This document shows, one piece after another, positions 10,357 to 17,815 of a stretch of 64,000 nucleotides of DNA. The stretch is from contig CASFTM010000004.1 in the NCBI GenBank assembly GCA_949297775.1, positions 62,001 through 126,000 on the forward strand. The letters are read 5' to 3'. How positions within the stretch are numbered: the first letter of the stretch is position 1; each line of letters begins with the position of its first letter. Source of the stretch: an uncultured bacterium. Its GTDB lineage: Bacteria; Elusimicrobiota; Elusimicrobia; Elusimicrobiales; Elusimicrobiaceae. The position numbers and the translations under genes are program-made. The notes under the pieces are model-generated. The model saw nothing but the letters and a program-made list of their open reading frames with translations. It was not told where the DNA came from and did not search any database.

Positions 10357-11289
10357 TTAATTCTTTATATTTGCTCCCAGTATTCCTTCGCAACAAGCTA
10401 ATAGTTCGCGATAAATGAGCGGGTCTTTTTTATGAAGTTTTAACAAATAGAATTTCACTTTATTCTCTGCAGAAAAAGAAATGCCATCTGGCGGGAATGA
10501 AAGGACTTGAATCACATCTTTCCACTTATAGGTAATATTCCGAACACCATTAAAAATAACACGTTGATTTGTAATGTACAAAGTACCATTCCCTTCTAAA
10601 TTAAGGTATTGCTGCCTGATAGGCTTTCCACGATATTCTCCTATTCGATAAGAAACTCCCTTAGCAATACGGAAACTCATTCCACTACTTTGGCCCTCAT
10701 AATGTGTTCTGGTTCTAACTTGATATAGTGAGGTATTAACAAAAAAATATAGTTTTTCACCTTCCTTTAAAGAGACATCCGTAAAAGGAATAGCCGCGAA
10801 CTCTCCTAATTTGTATCCCGTCATTCGATGAATAAATGAAATGTCTTTGCTAGTATCTTCAATTAATTGCAACAATTTACACCTTTCCAAAGAAGACAAC
10901 AATTGTGTTTCTTCTTCTCTAGCTAAATACCCTTGTTTCATCCTCATACGCAAGGCTTTCCGAAATCGTTTTTTGCACATTGCCCGTTCTTTTCGACAAT
11001 TAGGGCATACCATTGTAAATTCCTTGGGGAAAAAGAATTTAAAAAACAGCTTTCGTATACCTTTCAAATTTGGATAAAAAATCTTTCCACATACAGAACA
11101 TGTACCCAATTCCCCATTTTGATGTTCTGCTGGAATTCGCATATTATGCCAAACAAATATTACAAGCCCTAAGAGAAGAATAGTAACAACTGTTTTCCAA
11201 TTTATATCCACGTCTTGTGGAATAAAAAATAATGCTATCAAAGCAATTAATAATATTTTTTTATAATTATTTTGAATAAACCGCAGCAT
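10357..11289 (-). CDS. Membrane protein with zinc ribbon and GRAM/PH-like C-terminus
   Basis: 310 aa. Start set at the ATG 11289, 6 nt after AGAGGA. Two N-terminal membrane helices (about 9-27 and 33-50) precede a Cys pair CSVC (about 63-66) and a second pair CPNC (about 93-96), a zinc-ribbon pattern. A basic helix follows. The C-terminal third has GTLYITNQRVIFNG then YKWKDVIQV, which is the hallmark strand pattern of GRAM/PH-like domains. The gene is clearly more AT-rich than everything around it, with many AAA/ATT codons, which suggests recent acquisition. I do not recognise a named family; lipid or membrane sensing would be a guess. Confidence 0.75.
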   Translation of the reverse strand: MLRFIQNNYKKILLIALIALFFIPQDVDINWKTVVTILLLGLVIFVWHNMRIPAEHQNGELGTCSVCGKIFYPNLKGIRKLFFKFFFPKEFTMVCPNCRKERAMCKKRFRKALRMRMKQGYLAREEETQLLSSLERCKLLQLIEDTSKDISFIHRMTGYKLGEFAAIPFTDVSLKEGEKLYFFVNTSLYQVRTRTHYEGQSSGMSFRIAKGVSYRIGEYRGKPIRQQYLNLEGNGTLYITNQRVIFNGVRNITYKWKDVIQVLSFPPDGISFSAENKVKFYLLKLHKKDPLIYRELLACCEGILGANIKN

Positions 11290-11372
11290 TTTCATTCCTC
11301 TACATAAAACATACACTGGAAACAATATTCTTCCCCTAAAATTATTTCCTATTCAATTACATATTACCTTTT

Positions 11373-11614: not shown

Positions 11615-12355
11615 TTATCCCCGCCAAAGCAACGCCGCAACCAACAGAACATACAACAAACTGTCCAGGCGGTCGGAAAGCCCGCCATGCCCGGGCAGCA
11701 ATGTGCCCAAATCCTTTACTTTCAGTTGGCGTTTTAAAGCAGAAAAAGAAGCATCCCCTGCGAACCCGCCCACCGCCAAGCATCCCCCCAGCAAAAGGGC
11801 TTTTCCGCCGTGAATTGCTACAAAATACGGGGCCGCCGCATACGCCACACAAGCACTTGTAACCACGCCGCCCAAAAAGCCTTCCCAAGTTTTGGCGGGG
11901 CTAATGGTAGGCAACATGGCATGCTTGCCACAGCTCTTTCCCCATAGGTATTGAAAAACATCATTTAATTGCGTAAGCACCACCACAAAGAAAAATGCGC
12001 TTACGTCCTTCCGCCACAGCAGATAGCCTCCGCACAGCGCAACCGCCGCCAACACTCCTATCCCCCACGCCAGCACTATACTTGCCCGATTTTTCGGCGA
12101 AAGCGGACGGAAGGAAGAAATAATTTCCCACACAACTTGCACCGCTAACCCGCCGAAAATAACCGCAACAACCGGGGCAGGCAACACAAAAAGAGCCGCA
12201 AAAACACTCCAAATATACAGCCAGCTCCGAATGCGAAGCTTCACTTGCACCAATTCCGGTGTTGGGCGGCGATGATACATAAAAAGCGTTGTCACCCACC
12301 CGATCAGCAATAGGCCAATACTGGCCAGCAAACCATATAATATAGGCTTAGGCAT
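11615..12355 (-). CDS. cdsA: Phosphatidate cytidylyltransferase (CdsA/YnbB type)
   Basis: 246 aa, eight or so membrane helices. Makes CDP-diacylglycerol from phosphatidate and CTP at the inner membrane. The C-terminal signature is clear: SPAKTWEGFLGG (about 150-161), then GDASFSALKRQ and KDLGTLLPGHGGLSDRLDS (about 215-233) with the metal-binding Asp residues. In E. coli the ynb cluster carries a CdsA-like gene (ynbB) beside ynbA, ynbC and ynbD. Here it lies 300 bp after the other three, on the same strand, with terminator-like hairpins in between. It could therefore be either the housekeeping CdsA or the YnbB of this cluster. Function is secure, dedication to the cluster is inference. Confidence 0.92.
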   Translation of the reverse strand: MPKPILYGLLASIGLLLIGWVTTLFMYHRRPTPELVQVKLRIRSWLYIWSVFAALFVLPAPVVAVIFGGLAVQVVWEIISSFRPLSPKNRASIVLAWGIGVLAAVALCGGYLLWRKDVSAFFFVVVLTQLNDVFQYLWGKSCGKHAMLPTISPAKTWEGFLGGVVTSACVAYAAAPYFVAIHGGKALLLGGCLAVGGFAGDASFSALKRQLKVKDLGTLLPGHGGLSDRLDSLLYVLLVAALLWRG

Positions 12356-12463
12356 TGATTCCCCGTGTTTTACTTATCCCAATCAACGAATTGCCGCTAA
12401 AAATCCGTAACTCGCCCACAGTCTATCCTTCTAACAAGCCGCCTTTCCCCGGGAGGGGCCGGA

Positions 12464-12493
12464 AAAAATCAAACGGCAGCTTCGGCAAGCTGC
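12464..12493 (-). terminator. Hairpin plus T-run (terminator-like, minus strand)
   Basis: GCAGCTT / AAGCTGC with loop of 4; on the minus strand it is followed by CGTTTGATTTTTT. Confidence 0.65.
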
Positions 12494-12504
12494 AACAAAA
12501 AACA

Positions 12505-12579
12505 ATCTCCCGCCCCCTAAACAGGCGTCAACGCGGTTTACAGAAGAAGCTCCACGTATCCGCTGTCCGGGCGGGAGAT
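12505..12579 (-). repeat. 11-bp inverted repeat enclosing smaller hairpins
   Basis: ATCTCCCGCCC (12505-12515) and GGGCGGGAGAT (12569-12579) enclose 53 nt that can fold further (TAAAC/GTTTA). On the minus strand it is followed by TGTTTTTTG, so it could end a transcript. Confidence 0.55.
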
Positions 12580-12652
12580 GCGCTAAAATCAATTTATGGC
12601 AGGAAGGGCCATTCCTGGCCGGGTTCCCGGAGGAGTGTCCCCGGTATACCCG

Positions 12653-13114
12653 CTACTTAATCCCCGCGGTTAGCAAGGCAAAGCCAATCAACGTCAACGC
12701 CCACTGTGTAAAGCACAATGTAACCGCTTTAAAATAAATGGCTTTCGTTCCGGCCCAGCGGCTTTCCAAAGAACGATTTTTGCGATGCGCTTTCCAAAAA
12801 TACTGGATGGTATTGTCAAACGTTTCTTCCTCTTGCGGATGGTTGTATAAAACTTCAAATAACTTTCCTTCTACAGACAAGTGCACGCTCAAAAACATCG
12901 TCCACAACCCTATCAAAGACGCAACTCCCAAAATAGCCGCTCCGATAATATCCATCACGACTTCCGGGTTAAAAAAGAAATTAAACCCCATAATCGCCGT
13001 GGCATACGCCACCAAAGAAACTATCAGCAACTGCGGTGTTACACTCAAAAACGCCGACACCACTTTTCCCGCTACCGGGCTTTTCAAGTCTTTTTCTTGC
13101 ATGTTTTCTGTCAT
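12653..13114 (-). CDS. Small membrane protein of the ynb-like cluster
   Basis: 153 aa, not recognised. Three or four hydrophobic segments (about 25-50, 57-80, and 125-150) with a charged central part containing EEETFDN. No signal peptide. Its ATG overlaps the ynbD-like stop (ATGA), so it is translationally coupled as the last gene of the ynbA-C-D run. It has no counterpart in the E. coli ynb cluster that I know of. A role in the same lipid pathway is guilt by association. Confidence 0.75.
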   Translation of the reverse strand: MTENMQEKDLKSPVAGKVVSAFLSVTPQLLIVSLVAYATAIMGFNFFFNPEVVMDIIGAAILGVASLIGLWTMFLSVHLSVEGKLFEVLYNHPQEEETFDNTIQYFWKAHRKNRSLESRWAGTKAIYFKAVTLCFTQWALTLIGFALLTAGIK

Positions 13115-14442
13115 CTTTCAACACCTCTTTTATTTATATAAGGATATTTATTTTCCCATTGTAACAAATAATTCACTTGCCGTACCGAAAGCACCACCTG
13201 GGGCCGCTTGCGGCTTACGCAAGCAATACCTTCTCTCACGGACGGCACTTTGTGCACGGCCGTTAAATAAGCCGCCGCCACCGCCGCGCTGCGCGAAAGG
13301 CCCAACGCACAACAAACCGCCGTCGGCCCGCCAGGTACTTGCTTATGCAACAATTCCACCGTCTGCTGCAACTGCGCCGGAGTCAAGGCAAGCAAATCCA
13401 AACAAGGATAAACAGTTTTACCGCCGCATACAATGCCCGAAGAATCAAATTCCGCCGTCAAATCCAATACACGCGCCGCACACGCTTCCCCCGCACGAGG
13501 CAAACGCCCCACATACAAACGCTCTGTTAGCTGCGAAACCGCAGGAATACGGCGCAGGAAATACCCTTGGGAAAGCCTCGCGCCCCAACGGTATGGGGCC
13601 AACAGCACGCGGGCGGAAACGCTTTGGCGGCCTTGTTCGTCTTTTTGGAACACAGCCGGCCCCCACAGCCAATATCCAAGCCCCACTGCCAGCAAAGAGG
13701 CCGCGGGCCACAACAGAAACCAACCCCAGCTTTTCAACCAACACGCGCCGCTAACTAAACAAACGCTTCCCAGCACATACATTCCACCTAGCTTCCAGCG
13801 TTTCGGGTCCGCTCCTTCCGGCAAACGTGGGTACGAACGCATCGGCAATAAATAAGACAGCAATACCCCCACCGCCAGCCCCAGCGGCACATCAATAAAA
13901 TGATGTTGATAGCACGTCAGCACGGATAACCCAATCAGCAGGAACCAACCGCCCGCAAGCAGCCGTTTCCATCCGCCGGTATGCGCCCGAAAGCGCAGCC
14001 ACACCAACCACGCCAGCGCAATGTGCAAAGAGGGCGCCTGATTATACGGCGTAGCCACTAATCCGCCGCCCTCAAACAGGTACCGAAAAAACGGATTGGA
14101 AATGGGCGGAATTTCGGCGGAGCAAGCTAACGGAAACAACACAAAACACACACAGCAAACGCACGACGCCGCAAACAATCTGCCTGCATGGACGGCCAAT
14201 TCCCGCCGGGTGGTGCATAAAAAGAACGACAGCCCGTATAATACGTCCATACTCCAATAAGGGATAATGGTCCAGGGAAGGAAAGGAATGTGTTTTTCCC
14301 AACCGTAGGAAACACTCGGCACCAGCTCCAGCGAAGCGGTATAACGATTGGCCAATCCGTATGACAAAAAGAAAAAGCACGCCAACCCCACTAACAAGAG
14401 GCTGGCGTGTTTGTACAACGGAAAACGCTGGTTGAGTTTCAT
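13111..14442 (-). CDS. ynbD: PAP2-like / dual-specificity phosphatase fusion (YnbD-like)
   Basis: 443 aa, close to the 430 aa of E. coli YnbD. The N-terminal 240 residues form a membrane PAP2-superfamily domain: PSLHIALAW (about 133-141) and CYQHHFIDVPLGLAVG (about 172-187) supply the two His-containing phosphatase motifs. After more membrane helices, residues about 310-430 form a dual-specificity (Cys-based) phosphatase with VCCALGLSRSAAV, the CX5R catalytic loop, and an upstream Asp (CLDLLAL) as possible general acid. Cys-based phosphatases of this class include phosphatidylglycerophosphate phosphatases, so a lipid phosphate substrate is plausible. Start overlaps the ynbC stop (ATGA). Confidence 0.88.
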   Translation of the reverse strand: MKLNQRFPLYKHASLLLVGLACFFFLSYGLANRYTASLELVPSVSYGWEKHIPFLPWTIIPYWSMDVLYGLSFFLCTTRRELAVHAGRLFAASCVCCVCFVLFPLACSAEIPPISNPFFRYLFEGGGLVATPYNQAPSLHIALAWLVWLRFRAHTGGWKRLLAGGWFLLIGLSVLTCYQHHFIDVPLGLAVGVLLSYLLPMRSYPRLPEGADPKRWKLGGMYVLGSVCLVSGACWLKSWGWFLLWPAASLLAVGLGYWLWGPAVFQKDEQGRQSVSARVLLAPYRWGARLSQGYFLRRIPAVSQLTERLYVGRLPRAGEACAARVLDLTAEFDSSGIVCGGKTVYPCLDLLALTPAQLQQTVELLHKQVPGGPTAVCCALGLSRSAAVAAAYLTAVHKVPSVREGIACVSRKRPQVVLSVRQVNYLLQWENKYPYINKRGVER

Positions 14443-16202
14443 TTTTTGCGGGCAATGGACACAGAGAACATCCCGTCGGCATCAATCACTTGCCGCTCCT
14501 TAATAAACCCGGCTTTTTCCACCAAAAAGTCCATTTCTCCCTGTGTGCGGGCACGCATTACCCAACGTTTGTCGGGGGAATGCAAATCGCGCAGCGTGCG
14601 GGCAATTAATTCCAGTTGCGGGTGATACGGCTGCGCCGTATACACCAGCAAGCCGTCTTTTTCCATCGCGTTAAAAATACCCCGCAGCGATTTTTCTATC
14701 GGCTCGTTTTGCGGAAAAATCTCGTAGAACCCAGAAACAACCGCCAACGTGGGCCGCGGCAAAGTGGCGCCGGTTTTTTCTACATCAAACGCGTCGCCTT
14801 GCTCAAACGTCACTTTCTGCTGCAGGTTTCGCTCGCGGATAAGCCGTTTGCCAGCTTCCACGTTTTGGGGCTGATAATCCCGCAACAGGACCGTCTCTAT
14901 TCCTTCCGCATCGGCAATGGCATCCAAAATATAGCGCCCTTTCCCCGCGGCAACATCCAAAATACGGACGGATTTGTTCGCCTGTTTCAATTCGGCAACT
15001 GCTTGCCGGATCATTTTTTCCAAATTCTTTTTCCGCTGGCGGATTCCCTTCCACCCGGCCGATTGCAAATAGCACTTGTCAAACCACTTTCCCAGCCACA
15101 GTTTGCCAGAGGGTTCGTTTTGGTAAACATAATCCAACATTTCTCCGGAGTTAAACCCCTGCTGTTTGCCCAATTTCAATCCGCCCGACAGCTGCCCCAA
15201 GGTATTAAAGGTGTGCCGGCACAACCGCCACCAGTTGCCTTTCCAGGAATACCACGGCAAGTCGGCCATTAAATACCGGTATTCGTCCGCCGTGGGGCCC
15301 CATTCGTCCGCATGGGTATAATCCGGGTACGCCGGAGCCGCCGCATAAATCCGTTTGATAAAACGGTGCATATGGGCAAAGACCTGTTCCCGGTTTTGCT
15401 CGCCGAACGTATCGTGGTAAAACCCTTTCAACATGTGTTTTTCTTTCACGAACGAGCCCAGGTTGTGATAAAACCGGTGCTGCGGCCCGTGGTGTACAAC
15501 GACATCACTGCCCGATATAAACAACTGCACCGGCAGCTGGATAGCCCGCGCATCGGCCACAATCCGTTTGCCTAAGCGCGCCAATTCCAACAGCATATGG
15601 CTGGCAATGGTTTTGGTAATCAGGGGGTCCTCGTTATAAGATTTGCGCCGCTGCGGGTCGTGCGTCAAAAAGTTGGCATTTACGTAGGAAGAAATATAAA
15701 ACGGACGCCCCAGTATCTGCTGCAGCAACGTCATTCCCGCACAGGCAAAAGGAACATACAATTTAATGCTGAATGCCGGCGAAGCTAAAATCAAACCCCG
15801 GATTTTGGGTGCATAATCGTGCATCCAGGCCGCAGCATACACGGCGCTGATGCTTTGGGCAATGACCAAAATATTTTGGGTCGGGATATGATAGGTCTGC
15901 GAAACATAGGCCACAAAATCGCCCACGTCCTGCACGGAACGCGCCACCGATGGGCTATAGCCGCGCGGTCCTTCCGTGCGGCCGTGCCCGCGGGCATCAA
16001 ACGAGAACATAGGCACTTCGGGCATATTCAATTCGTCCACGATCTGCTGCAAGCGGGCGCTGTGCTCGTGCCCCCGGTGCAGCAACACAAAACATTTGTC
16101 CGCCTGTTCTGCCGGCACGGCAGACGGCCACATCCGATAAAAAAGTTGTTTTCCGTCGGACGCTTGAAAAAAGCCTTCCCGGGAAGAACGTGTTGAATTC
16201 AT
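14439..16202 (-). CDS. ynbC: Alpha/beta hydrolase - methyltransferase fusion (YnbC-like)
   Basis: 587 aa from the ATG 16202 (AGGAGAAAACAA before it), almost the length of E. coli YnbC (585 aa). The longest frame runs further upstream but would overlap ynbA. Residues 1-300 are a lysophospholipase-like alpha/beta hydrolase: LLHRGHEHSAR, DARGHGRTEGPRG and the nucleophile region VIAQSISAV (Ser in AQSIS). Residues about 390-587 are a class I SAM methyltransferase beginning RILDVAAGKGRYI. The fusion suggests deacylation or transacylation coupled to methylation of a lipid headgroup or acyl chain. Start and stop both overlap neighbours by ATGA, so ynbA-C-D is tightly coupled. The substrate is unknown in any organism I can name. 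Confidence 0.88.
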   Translation of the reverse strand: MNSTRSSREGFFQASDGKQLFYRMWPSAVPAEQADKCFVLLHRGHEHSARLQQIVDELNMPEVPMFSFDARGHGRTEGPRGYSPSVARSVQDVGDFVAYVSQTYHIPTQNILVIAQSISAVYAAAWMHDYAPKIRGLILASPAFSIKLYVPFACAGMTLLQQILGRPFYISSYVNANFLTHDPQRRKSYNEDPLITKTIASHMLLELARLGKRIVADARAIQLPVQLFISGSDVVVHHGPQHRFYHNLGSFVKEKHMLKGFYHDTFGEQNREQVFAHMHRFIKRIYAAAPAYPDYTHADEWGPTADEYRYLMADLPWYSWKGNWWRLCRHTFNTLGQLSGGLKLGKQQGFNSGEMLDYVYQNEPSGKLWLGKWFDKCYLQSAGWKGIRQRKKNLEKMIRQAVAELKQANKSVRILDVAAGKGRYILDAIADAEGIETVLLRDYQPQNVEAGKRLIRERNLQQKVTFEQGDAFDVEKTGATLPRPTLAVVSGFYEIFPQNEPIEKSLRGIFNAMEKDGLLVYTAQPYHPQLELIARTLRDLHSPDKRWVMRARTQGEMDFLVEKAGFIKERQVIDADGMFSVSIARKK

Positions 16203-16797
16203 TTGTTTTCTCCTAAAGCGCGGGACAGGCGGTTCCATACCGTATACAACATCAGCAAATTTACCACCCAGATATAATACGATGTAACTGTAATGGAAGG
16301 CCAATGGAACACGGTCAGCAAGCCAAGCAACCCCAGCCAAAAAGCCCGGTCGCTTTTGCCCATGGGCCCGTCGTAACGGCGGGAAGCCTGTATCTGCAGC
16401 CCCATAATGCCGGCGGTTTCCGTTAAGATTAACAAGACACTAAAAACTAAAATCGTCCACAGGTTCATATGGAGCACATACAGAAAGGGAATATACAACA
16501 CCAAATCGGACAAAATGTCCCCCATTTCATTTAAAACGGCCCCCAGGCGGGTTTTTGGTTGTATTCCCGGGCGAGCATGCCGTCAAACGCATTTAACGCC
16601 ATGCGCACAAAAAGAAACAGAGGCATCACCCCATACACTGCCGGATGGGTTGGCGCAGCGCAGCCCACGGCCGCCCCGACCAAGCAGGAAAGAACAAAGG
16701 CCGTAATCGTCACTTGGTTGGCGGAAATGCGGCGAGCGGCTAAGAAAGCCACTGCCGGACGCAAAAACTGCTGAAAGGCAGGCTTGAGTTGGTATAT
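16199..16797 (-). pseudogene. ynbA: CDP-alcohol phosphatidyltransferase (YnbA-like), frameshifted
   Basis: The family would transfer a phosphatidyl group from CDP-diacylglycerol to an alcohol. The signature DG..AR........G...D...D is split: NAFDGMLAREYNQK lies in one frame (16531 upward), and LGAVLNEMGDILSD in another. Adding one A to the five-A run near 16548-16552 rejoins them and gives 199 codons, close to E. coli YnbA (201 aa). The upstream half extends back past a TTG (16764) as YQLKPAFQQFLRP, which resembles the E. coli N-terminus, but no ATG, GTG or ribosome site precedes it (ATA at 16797). Either a real pseudogene, a -1 frameshift gene, or an assembly error. Its stop overlaps the ynbC start. 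Confidence 0.8.
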
Positions 16798-16835
16798 AGA
16801 AATTATATTTTATTGTATCATATAAAATAAATAGA

Positions 16836-16951: not shown

Positions 16952-17815
16952 ATGACAACCCTTTTTTTCGTGTTGCTGGTAGCGGTGTTGCTGGGGATTA
17001 TCCTCCCCAGCGGCTACGGGTTATGGTTGTATTCCCGCGCACAAAAGCCTCCCCTTACGTTGCACCCGCAGGATGTAGGTTTGAAGGCGGAAGAAATAAC
17101 GGTCGCTATACCGGGCCGCGGAACGGTGAAAGGCTGGTTCATTGCCAACCCTGCCAGCCCCAACACCCTGGTGCTGATGCATGGCTTTGCCATGAACAAA
17201 GGTGATATTTTAAAACGCACGTATCTGCTGGCAAAAGACTGCAATTTATTTTATTTTGATTTTTTAGGTTCCGGCGACAGTCAAGGGAAAACCCATATCG
17301 GTTATTCGGAGCCGGACGATTTGGAGCACGTCATTCAATACCTCAAACAATACAAACCGCAAGCCACGCGCCGCGTGGCCCTATACGGGATAAGCCAAGG
17401 GGCGGGAGCGGCCGTCCGTTATACAGCCAATCACCCGGAAATGGCTTGCCTGATTGCCGAGGCGACCTATTATTCGTTTTGGGATGTTGCCCGCCGCTGG
17501 ATTTGGAAGCGGACCAAAACCCCGTATTTCCCCACCGTATACAGCTTTTTACGCTTGGCAGAATTAAAGCTGCACTGCCATTTGGAAGACTTTGCGCCTA
17601 AAAACACCGCTTCCGCCATAAAGGTTCCCTCTTTGCTCATACACGGGCAAAAAGATTCCATTTCCCCACTGGCAAATGCCCGCAAAGTGTATGCCCTTTT
17701 GTCCGGCCCCAAAGAATTGTGGAGCGTCCCTGAAGCGGGGCATACCAGCTGCGCACGCGTCGCCGGGGAAGAGTATATCCGGCGTATCCGTGCTTTCCTA
17801 AAAGCACATTTATAA
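16952..17815 (+). CDS. Membrane-anchored alpha/beta hydrolase
   Basis: 287 aa with AAGGAAAC before the ATG. An N-terminal hydrophobic helix (about 3-25) anchors a serine hydrolase domain of the BAAT/YqkD-like type: LMHGFAMNKGD (oxyanion region, about 73-83), YDFLGSGDSQG, YGISQGAGAA with the nucleophile Ser (about 150), a late Asp (GQKDSISP) and His (EAGHTSC) that complete the triad. Acts on an ester or amide that I cannot name. It is divergent from the ynb cluster, so it is not part of that operon. Confidence 0.87.
   Translation: MTTLFFVLLVAVLLGIILPSGYGLWLYSRAQKPPLTLHPQDVGLKAEEITVAIPGRGTVKGWFIANPASPNTLVLMHGFAMNKGDILKRTYLLAKDCNLFYFDFLGSGDSQGKTHIGYSEPDDLEHVIQYLKQYKPQATRRVALYGISQGAGAAVRYTANHPEMACLIAEATYYSFWDVARRWIWKRTKTPYFPTVYSFLRLAELKLHCHLEDFAPKNTASAIKVPSLLIHGQKDSISPLANARKVYALLSGPKELWSVPEAGHTSCARVAGEEYIRRIRAFLKAHL

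Follow-up and report, generated by a model that had tools for sequence, protein, structure and literature searches.

Do the ynb genes encode a single lipid pathway, and what might that pathway make? The question is raised by a ynb-type cluster on the minus strand, at positions 11615-16806, of the window, a 64,000-nt stretch of contig CASFTM010000004.1 (our contig C4) in the 1.69 Mb, 32-contig draft genome of an uncultured gut bacterium of the Elusimicrobiota (genome G000). The kind is already known by name, as ynbABCD of Escherichia coli, and our literature search found no function reported for that cluster as a whole. An earlier note, made from the sequence alone, had recognized the four ynb domain types here in a distant phylum and had joined them in one pathway, in which CTP activates a lipid, an alcohol phosphate is attached, phosphatases remove phosphate, and the product is methylated or deacylated. 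The phylum, the domain types, their order and their strand all hold up (the matches are to CTP_transf_1, DSPc/PAP2, Hydrolase_4/Methyltransf_20 and CDP-OH_P_transf), and the likeness to E. coli is one of sequence homology, not just of domain types. Comparison across genomes, however, divides the unit into a core, consisting of the CDP-alcohol phosphotransferase relative YnbA, the CDP-diacylglycerol synthase YnbB and a PlsC-like acyltransferase, and a decorating module of YnbC, YnbD and a small membrane protein, S. We hold with moderate confidence that this is an accessory pathway that makes, dephosphorylates, deacylates and methylates a phospholipid other than the bulk ones.

A core and a decorating module

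We surveyed 66 genomes of the window's genus, a 294-genome sample of its phylum, and 185 genomes of the class of Providencia alcalifaciens; the last were not picked by YnbC likeness, except for the centre genome, which is one of its three YnbC genomes. YnbC occurs in 4 of the 66 genomes of the genus; the cluster is accessory and rare there. Six genomes of the phylum sample have a YnbC match at E 0.001, five of them above the family cut-off, and strong YnbD matches mark exactly the same five, the next best (126 bits) covering only the C-terminal half. In the 185-genome sample, full-length YnbD likewise occurs in the same three genomes as YnbC. The earlier note had reasoned that genes found separately in most relatives would speak against one pathway; for C and D such separation is absent from both samples.

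YnbA ranges more widely. Strong matches in the phylum sample (>250 bits, the next best being 42.6 bits) fall in G230, G193, G146, G074 and G247, the first four being YnbC genomes; the fifth YnbC genome is the window's own, where YnbA is broken. In G247 neither YnbC nor YnbD is matched anywhere in the genome, and contig C146 (locus L127, 7827-14152) sets a full-length Aas homologue (LplT-acyltransferase-ligase, 1134 aa) and one membrane-protein gene beside YnbA, YnbB and a gene of the PlsC kind. YnbA occurs in eight genomes of the 185-genome sample, five of which lack C and D; four of these have A, B and PlsC together, and the stretch from the remaining one showed only A. Because C and D mark the same genomes, while YnbA is wider and is accompanied by YnbB and PlsC when it stands without them, the unit is a core plus a decorating module. 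The idea of one pathway thus keeps its support from C and D, but the unit is something other than the four genes assumed in the earlier note.

For gene order we took the best 80 of 520 confirmed relatives, by YnbC likeness, from a scan of named genomes. One of these (L023), identical to L010, was dropped, and the window, five loci from plasmids and four from Elusimicrobiota brought the set to 89 loci, four of them contigs under 8 kb. In this set, picked by YnbC likeness, profiles found all six families (A, C, D, S, P for PlsC, and B) in 66 loci, A in 88, D in 86 and S in 78. With lower case denoting the other strand, the orders are ACDSPB (29 loci), ABPCDS (18), ACDS (8), aCDSPB (8), bpACDS (7) and ACDSB (4), the other 15 loci being spread over eleven further orders. 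A directly adjoins C in 63 of the 89, and S comes after D in every order that contains S.

E. coli ynbABCD resembles the window cluster in its four families, shared strand and tight spacing, but its order is A-B-C-D, against A-C-D-S-B in the window, and its YnbB has 298 aa, against 246; the window adds S, lacks PlsC and has a broken YnbA, and its relatives have an LplT-like gene. Of 5426 complete E. coli genomes, 4242 carry at least 80% of a ynbABCD query at a single location. Extended ynb loci in Rhizobium, Burkholderia, Pseudomonas and others share A, C, D, S and B with the window and differ from it by the added PlsC and by their gene orders. On a Pseudanabaena plasmid A-B-PlsC is accompanied by the methyltransferase half of YnbC without the lipase half, so that lipase and methyltransferase are separable steps; a Caballeronia plasmid carries A, B and PlsC without C, and a Fusobacterium record has the order C-A-B. 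On a Moraxella osloensis plasmid (L130, 7956-10451), YnbA and the start of YnbC lie in one open frame, followed by genes for a patatin-like phospholipase and a short-chain dehydrogenase/reductase; a stop interrupts C further on, and we did not use this locus as evidence of a natural A-C fusion.

In a YnbC tree made by a quick method (88 rows, 3 of the 91 aligned rows having been left out as shorter than 450 residues or as additional rows from one locus), the Elusimicrobiota sequences, five in number, group together with support 100 on a long stem; the rows were picked by likeness to these very sequences, so the tree does not settle the donor or the direction of transfer.

An altered active site throughout the YnbA family

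CDP-alcohol phosphotransferases carry the signature D1xxD2GxxAR...GxxxD3xxxD4, whose four Asp hold two metal ions (PMC6506517, PMC10156783). Human CEPT1 loses almost all activity with the substitutions D136A and D154A (PMC10156783); judging by spacing, and this assignment is our own, these would be D2 and D3. The YnbA motif is N-x-x-D-G-x-x-A-R-E...G-x-x-x-N-E-x-x-D. In our alignment the first Asn is present in 87 of 87 rows and the second in 87 of 88 (one row has Gln), with D2 and D4 in 87 of 87 each. YnbA shares its sequence family, D2-G...A-R and D4 with PgsA, phosphatidylinositol phosphate (PIP) synthase and CEPT1, but differs at D1 and D3, where all five of the other enzymes compared keep Asp. 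A regular-expression scan of all loci gave 85 distinct Asn/Asn sites and five Asp/Asp sites, the latter all belonging to other CDP-alcohol phosphotransferases, two of them from this genome. The Asn pair also occurs in YnbA from genomes without YnbC (L146, L147 and L149, where both positions are visible) and in the Fusobacterium and Moraxella YnbA, whose AR is changed.

Intact YnbA nonetheless scores above the PF01066 cut-off of 22 bits (44.8 bits for L012, 36.1 for E. coli), and we class it as related to the CDP-alcohol phosphotransferase family rather than as one of its proven enzymes. Our literature search found no report of an Asn variant of the signature among the results listed, which is a weak negative. 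The attachment of an alcohol phosphate, as the earlier note had it, drew on the domain name, and the catalytic signature proves to be altered across the YnbA family. This family-wide Asn pair, and not the window's own copy, is the most interesting element of the system. It is conceivable, and we put it forward tentatively and with some doubt, that YnbA founds a distinct branch of CDP-alcohol phosphotransferases using Asn at D1 and D3 (with one metal, or with other chemistry or another acceptor) and that the core and decorating module together make an undescribed deacylated, methylated phospholipid, in E. coli and in other phyla.

YnbC, YnbD, S and YnbB

YnbC (14439-16202, 587 aa) joins an N-terminal hydrolase of monoacylglycerol-lipase type (Hydrolase_4, E 1e-56) to an S-adenosylmethionine-dependent methyltransferase (Methyltransf_20, E 7e-115), and is 52.6% identical to E. 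coli YnbC across 100% of the query. Its predicted model (mean predicted local distance difference test score, pLDDT, 91.8) matches the monoacylglycerol-lipase fold of 6eic with Z 33.3 and 2.6 A over 275 residues, and Ser117, Asp233 and His263, whose catalytic roles are assigned by motif, are invariant in 42 rows. The lipase half is thus modelled as a monoacylglycerol-lipase fold with a catalytic Ser-Asp-His set, and its activity on monoacylglycerol is a prediction. Both fold searches with YnbC were filled by the lipase domain and carry no evidence on the methyltransferase fold, so no methyltransferase substrate could be named from structure. A search for anti-phage defence systems gave a sole match, to mad2, through the methyltransferase domain (8e-9, 32.8 bits), which we read as generic.

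YnbD (13111-14442, 443 aa) combines a PAP2_3-type membrane phosphatase/transferase domain with a dual-specificity phosphatase (DSP) domain. The DSPc match is above its cut-off and the PAP2_3/PAP2 matches are weak, just under theirs (PAP2_3, 25.4 bits against 27). The YnbD profile is matched over all 418 of its 418 positions, with 575 bits, the window protein being itself in that alignment. Both the CX5R motif (Cys378, Arg384) and PSLH...QHHxxD are invariant in 29 rows. In its model (pLDDT 91.5) the DSP fold is matched by Tk-PTP (Z 18.8, 1.8 A over 133 residues) and, among the top matches, by PTPMT1 (Z 18.1, 2.2 A over 138); the DSP domain accounted for the matches listed, among which there is no AUR1- or PAP2-type chain. 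Among other Elusimicrobiota, G209, G272, G223, G227, G208 and G086 have proteins that match YnbD only in its C-terminal half (the last transmembrane part plus the DSP domain); in G209 and G272 the PAP2 half is matched separately as well, by sequences with an internal stop.

S (12653-13114, 153 aa) is a small membrane protein that adjoins YnbD in most ynb loci; profile searches assigned it to no Pfam or NCBIfam family. The YnbB-type gene (11615-12355, 246 aa; CTP_transf_1, E 1e-42) scores 241 bits against a YnbB profile that has this protein among its sources, versus 123 bits for the genome's own CdsA, and by this comparison it is YnbB rather than a housekeeping CdsA. Catalytic motifs are intact in C, D and B, all three of which belong by sequence to the ynb cluster; YnbA belongs by homology, but is broken here.

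The A/C, C/D and D/S junctions are all ATGA overlaps. YnbB is uncoupled, lying beyond a gap of 297 nt (12356-12652) with a strong predicted hairpin; the region has 16 terminator-like sites versus 10.8 in shuffled sequences (standard deviation 3.8), no clear excess, so the hairpin is only suggestive. At this place L010, L011 and L012 have an LplT-like transporter gene of the major facilitator superfamily (MFS), and the L013 contig ends before it. Neither blastn nor tblastn found a remnant of that gene in the window's gap. Since the closest relative, L011, has the gene, the simpler assumption is that the window's line has lost it. The L012 copy scores 329 bits against the model for Aas, of which LplT is one domain, and lies below the equivalog scores for both LplT (79 bits against 297) and full Aas (1349), only the LplT part of the latter being present; in contrast to LplT within Aas, it is a stand-alone gene inside the ynb cluster.

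YnbA is broken in this genome

The ynbA remnant occupies 16199-16806, and the cluster boundary of 16797 given in the earlier note should therefore be moved to 16806. Relatives begin the gene with ATG-ATT-TCT; here the start is ATA (16806-16804). Compared with L011 (genome G193), one base has been lost near 16555, just after the DGxxAR motif, leading to a stop at 16533-16531, after which the frame resumes to 16199. What remains is a partial CDP-OH_P_transf match at 16531-16797 (E 0.0012), and a whole-genome search matched only two fragments (149 and 121 bits), with no intact YnbA elsewhere in the genome. The five other Elusimicrobiota copies of YnbA carry neither lesion, and another genome of the same genus, G230, holds an intact version of the cluster. 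The earlier note was right about the ATGA coupling and the extra small membrane protein; it missed the start change and frameshift in ynbA, and the transporter that the relatives have and the window lacks.

The ratio of nonsynonymous to synonymous divergence (dN/dS) from L011 is 0.153 and 0.095 for the two halves of the remnant, and 0.063 (C), 0.092 (S), 0.159 (D) and 0.176 (B) for the intact genes, in pairs of short genes with dS near 1 or above. The loss of ynbA may be recent, or the differences may be errors; a recent interruption is suggested by the purifying selection that the remnant still shows against its nearest relative. We consider it unlikely that assembly or sequencing errors explain both lesions and that the cluster is in fact intact. 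One-base differences are a common type of error, the genome is a draft in 32 contigs, and the remnant still looks constrained, but two independent changes fall within one 608-nt gene and none in the other four, the five other Elusimicrobiota YnbA genes have neither change, and the MFS gene is gone as well, although the S and YnbB genes that flank its place are present. We conclude that the pathway is probably interrupted at YnbA in this organism, and with YnbA broken it cannot run in the window as the earlier note had described. Two other CDP-alcohol phosphotransferases in the genome, both with the usual signature, mean that bulk phospholipids need not depend on YnbA.

A PlsC-type ynb locus also occurs on an E. 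coli plasmid (NZ_CP045714.1; locus L019, 5836-9979), which is conjugative, of the IncF group, and carries colicin M. YnbA there is spread over two overlapping frames, and only a fragment of YnbD is present; decay of the cluster may therefore not be unique to the window. In L013 (14456-17436), the YnbC of G146 is without the methyltransferase-domain stretch found in relatives and the YnbD translation has a run of X, and this copy may be misassembled or damaged.

A proposed pathway and its alternatives

From the homology, linkage, gene order, C/D/B catalytic motifs, altered YnbA motif and lesions described above, we infer the following chemical steps and their order. In the core, a PlsC-like acyltransferase, where present, would make phosphatidic acid, YnbB would activate it to CDP-diacylglycerol, and YnbA would move the phosphatidyl group to an alcohol, probably a phosphate-bearing one. 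In the decoration that would follow, the DSP domain of YnbD would take off the head-group phosphate and its PAP2_3 domain would handle a second phosphate or move the phospho-head group; YnbC would remove an acyl chain with its lipase half and methylate the product with its methyltransferase half. The Elusimicrobiota relatives have their LplT-like flippase at the place that PlsC takes in Proteobacteria, which suggests a lyso-lipid that needs to cross the membrane, and the lipase, PlsC, LplT and Aas companions together point to a lyso-lipid stage.

Three features suggest that the acceptor carries a phosphate: the likeness of YnbA to inositol-phosphate enzymes, its invariant residues Arg143, Lys151, Arg154 and Arg193, and the DSP phosphatase. 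Arg residues bind the acceptor phosphate in Mycobacterium tuberculosis PIP synthase (PMC4634129), and some of the invariant basic residues of YnbA appear to fall in that region, in a rough correspondence of our own. E. coli YnbD does not replace phosphatidylglycerophosphate (PGP) or undecaprenyl pyrophosphate phosphatases (PMC7413402), and its failure with the former disfavours glycerol phosphate as the acceptor. YnbB, for its part, makes CDP-diacylglycerol but cannot replace CdsA (PMC6362211, PMC7018664), its synthesis in vitro being insufficient for growth (PMC7018664); such weak output fits a supplier of a minor lipid. Together, these failures to replace CdsA and the two phosphatases argue that the pathway is not a bulk one.

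Several observations weigh against the proposed pathway. The YnbA signature is without two of its four metal ligands (D1 and D3), and YnbA may not be an active CDP-alcohol phosphotransferase. The E. coli locus has neither S nor PlsC, and one study found no polyphosphate phenotype for a ynbC deletion in the Keio background (PMC2435150). X. griffiniae and E. whittamii have YnbC with no YnbD match in either genome, and Neisseria elongata has its D gene elsewhere in the genome, away from C. The high dS and short genes behind our dN/dS values count here too.

Other functions can be imagined for the same genes. The genes BT_1522-1526 of Bacteroides thetaiotaomicron follow a similar logic, in that a phosphatidyl group is transferred to an alcohol phosphate and the cluster also has a phosphatase and a PAP2 protein resembling AUR1 (PMC9246714), and by analogy YnbA would make phosphatidylinositol phosphate, the DSP domain would convert it to phosphatidylinositol, and the PAP2_3 domain would act like AUR1. 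Among NCBIfam models, intact YnbA (L012) indeed scores best against archaetidylinositol phosphate synthase (66.8 bits), followed by phosphatidylinositol phosphate synthase (41.2 bits), and a PDB search with the YnbA profile placed 6h53, the inositol enzyme of M. tuberculosis, first (E 1e-11). The NCBIfam scores lie far below the curated cut-offs of 180 and 170 bits, however, and the phosphatase of the Bacteroides cluster is PgpA-like and not a DSP (PMC9246714), while ynb adds the lipase-methyltransferase, alters the YnbA signature and has no inositol-phosphate synthase. An inositol head group is unlikely because inositol-1-phosphate synthase (PF01658) is found in none of six YnbA genomes, four of them >90% complete, in a search whose control was positive in 6 of 14; we accordingly regard the Bacteroides-like scheme as quite improbable. 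We give equally little credence to the idea that YnbB feeds synthesis of the glycolipid MPIase and that its neighbours are incidental. Overproduced YnbB raises MPIase, and YnbB has been proposed as a backup enzyme (PMC6362211, PMC7018664), but the ynbB knockout gave no significant change in MPIase (PMC6362211). YnbB moreover adjoins YnbA, usually with PlsC, across phyla and even without C and D, and MPIase, as N-acetylglucosamine-pyrophosphate-diacylglycerol, should require no phosphatidyltransferase, lipase or methyltransferase.

Slightly less remote, although still improbable, is a repair or salvage route in which YnbC would deacylate a damaged lipid, LplT move the lyso-lipid, PlsC or Aas re-acylate it, and YnbA and YnbB recycle the head group. 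The lipase fold of YnbC, the LplT-like gene of three Elusimicrobiota relatives and the Aas homologue two genes from YnbA-YnbB-PlsC in G247 would all fit. Yet G247 is the genome without C and D, which makes the Aas link independent of the lipase, and repair should need neither a CDP-diacylglycerol synthase nor a methyltransferase. We retain the accessory biosynthetic pathway as our preferred reading.

Neighbouring genes

A divergent alpha/beta hydrolase gene (16952-17815) adjoins ynbA in four of five Elusimicrobiota loci. We rejected it as a further member of the cluster: it is a second paralogue of a near-universal gene, with relatives in 62 of the 66 genomes of the genus, and it occurs without ynb, a close copy lying beside homologues of other window genes in G258, which has no YnbC. 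On the other side of the cluster, 10357-11325 encodes a 322-aa protein with a weak GRAM-domain match (E 0.07) and zinc-ribbon-like cysteine pairs, and no confident family.

Implications

For this organism the comparison carries a caution, as the cluster is rare in its genus and broken in this genome. For the family, it turns four orphan genes into a scheme that can be dissected, with a YnbA-YnbB-PlsC core from which the C-D-S module can be separated. YnbB deserves a second look in this light, as supplying YnbA and not only as a backup for MPIase, and the Asn pair of YnbA offers a sharp test.

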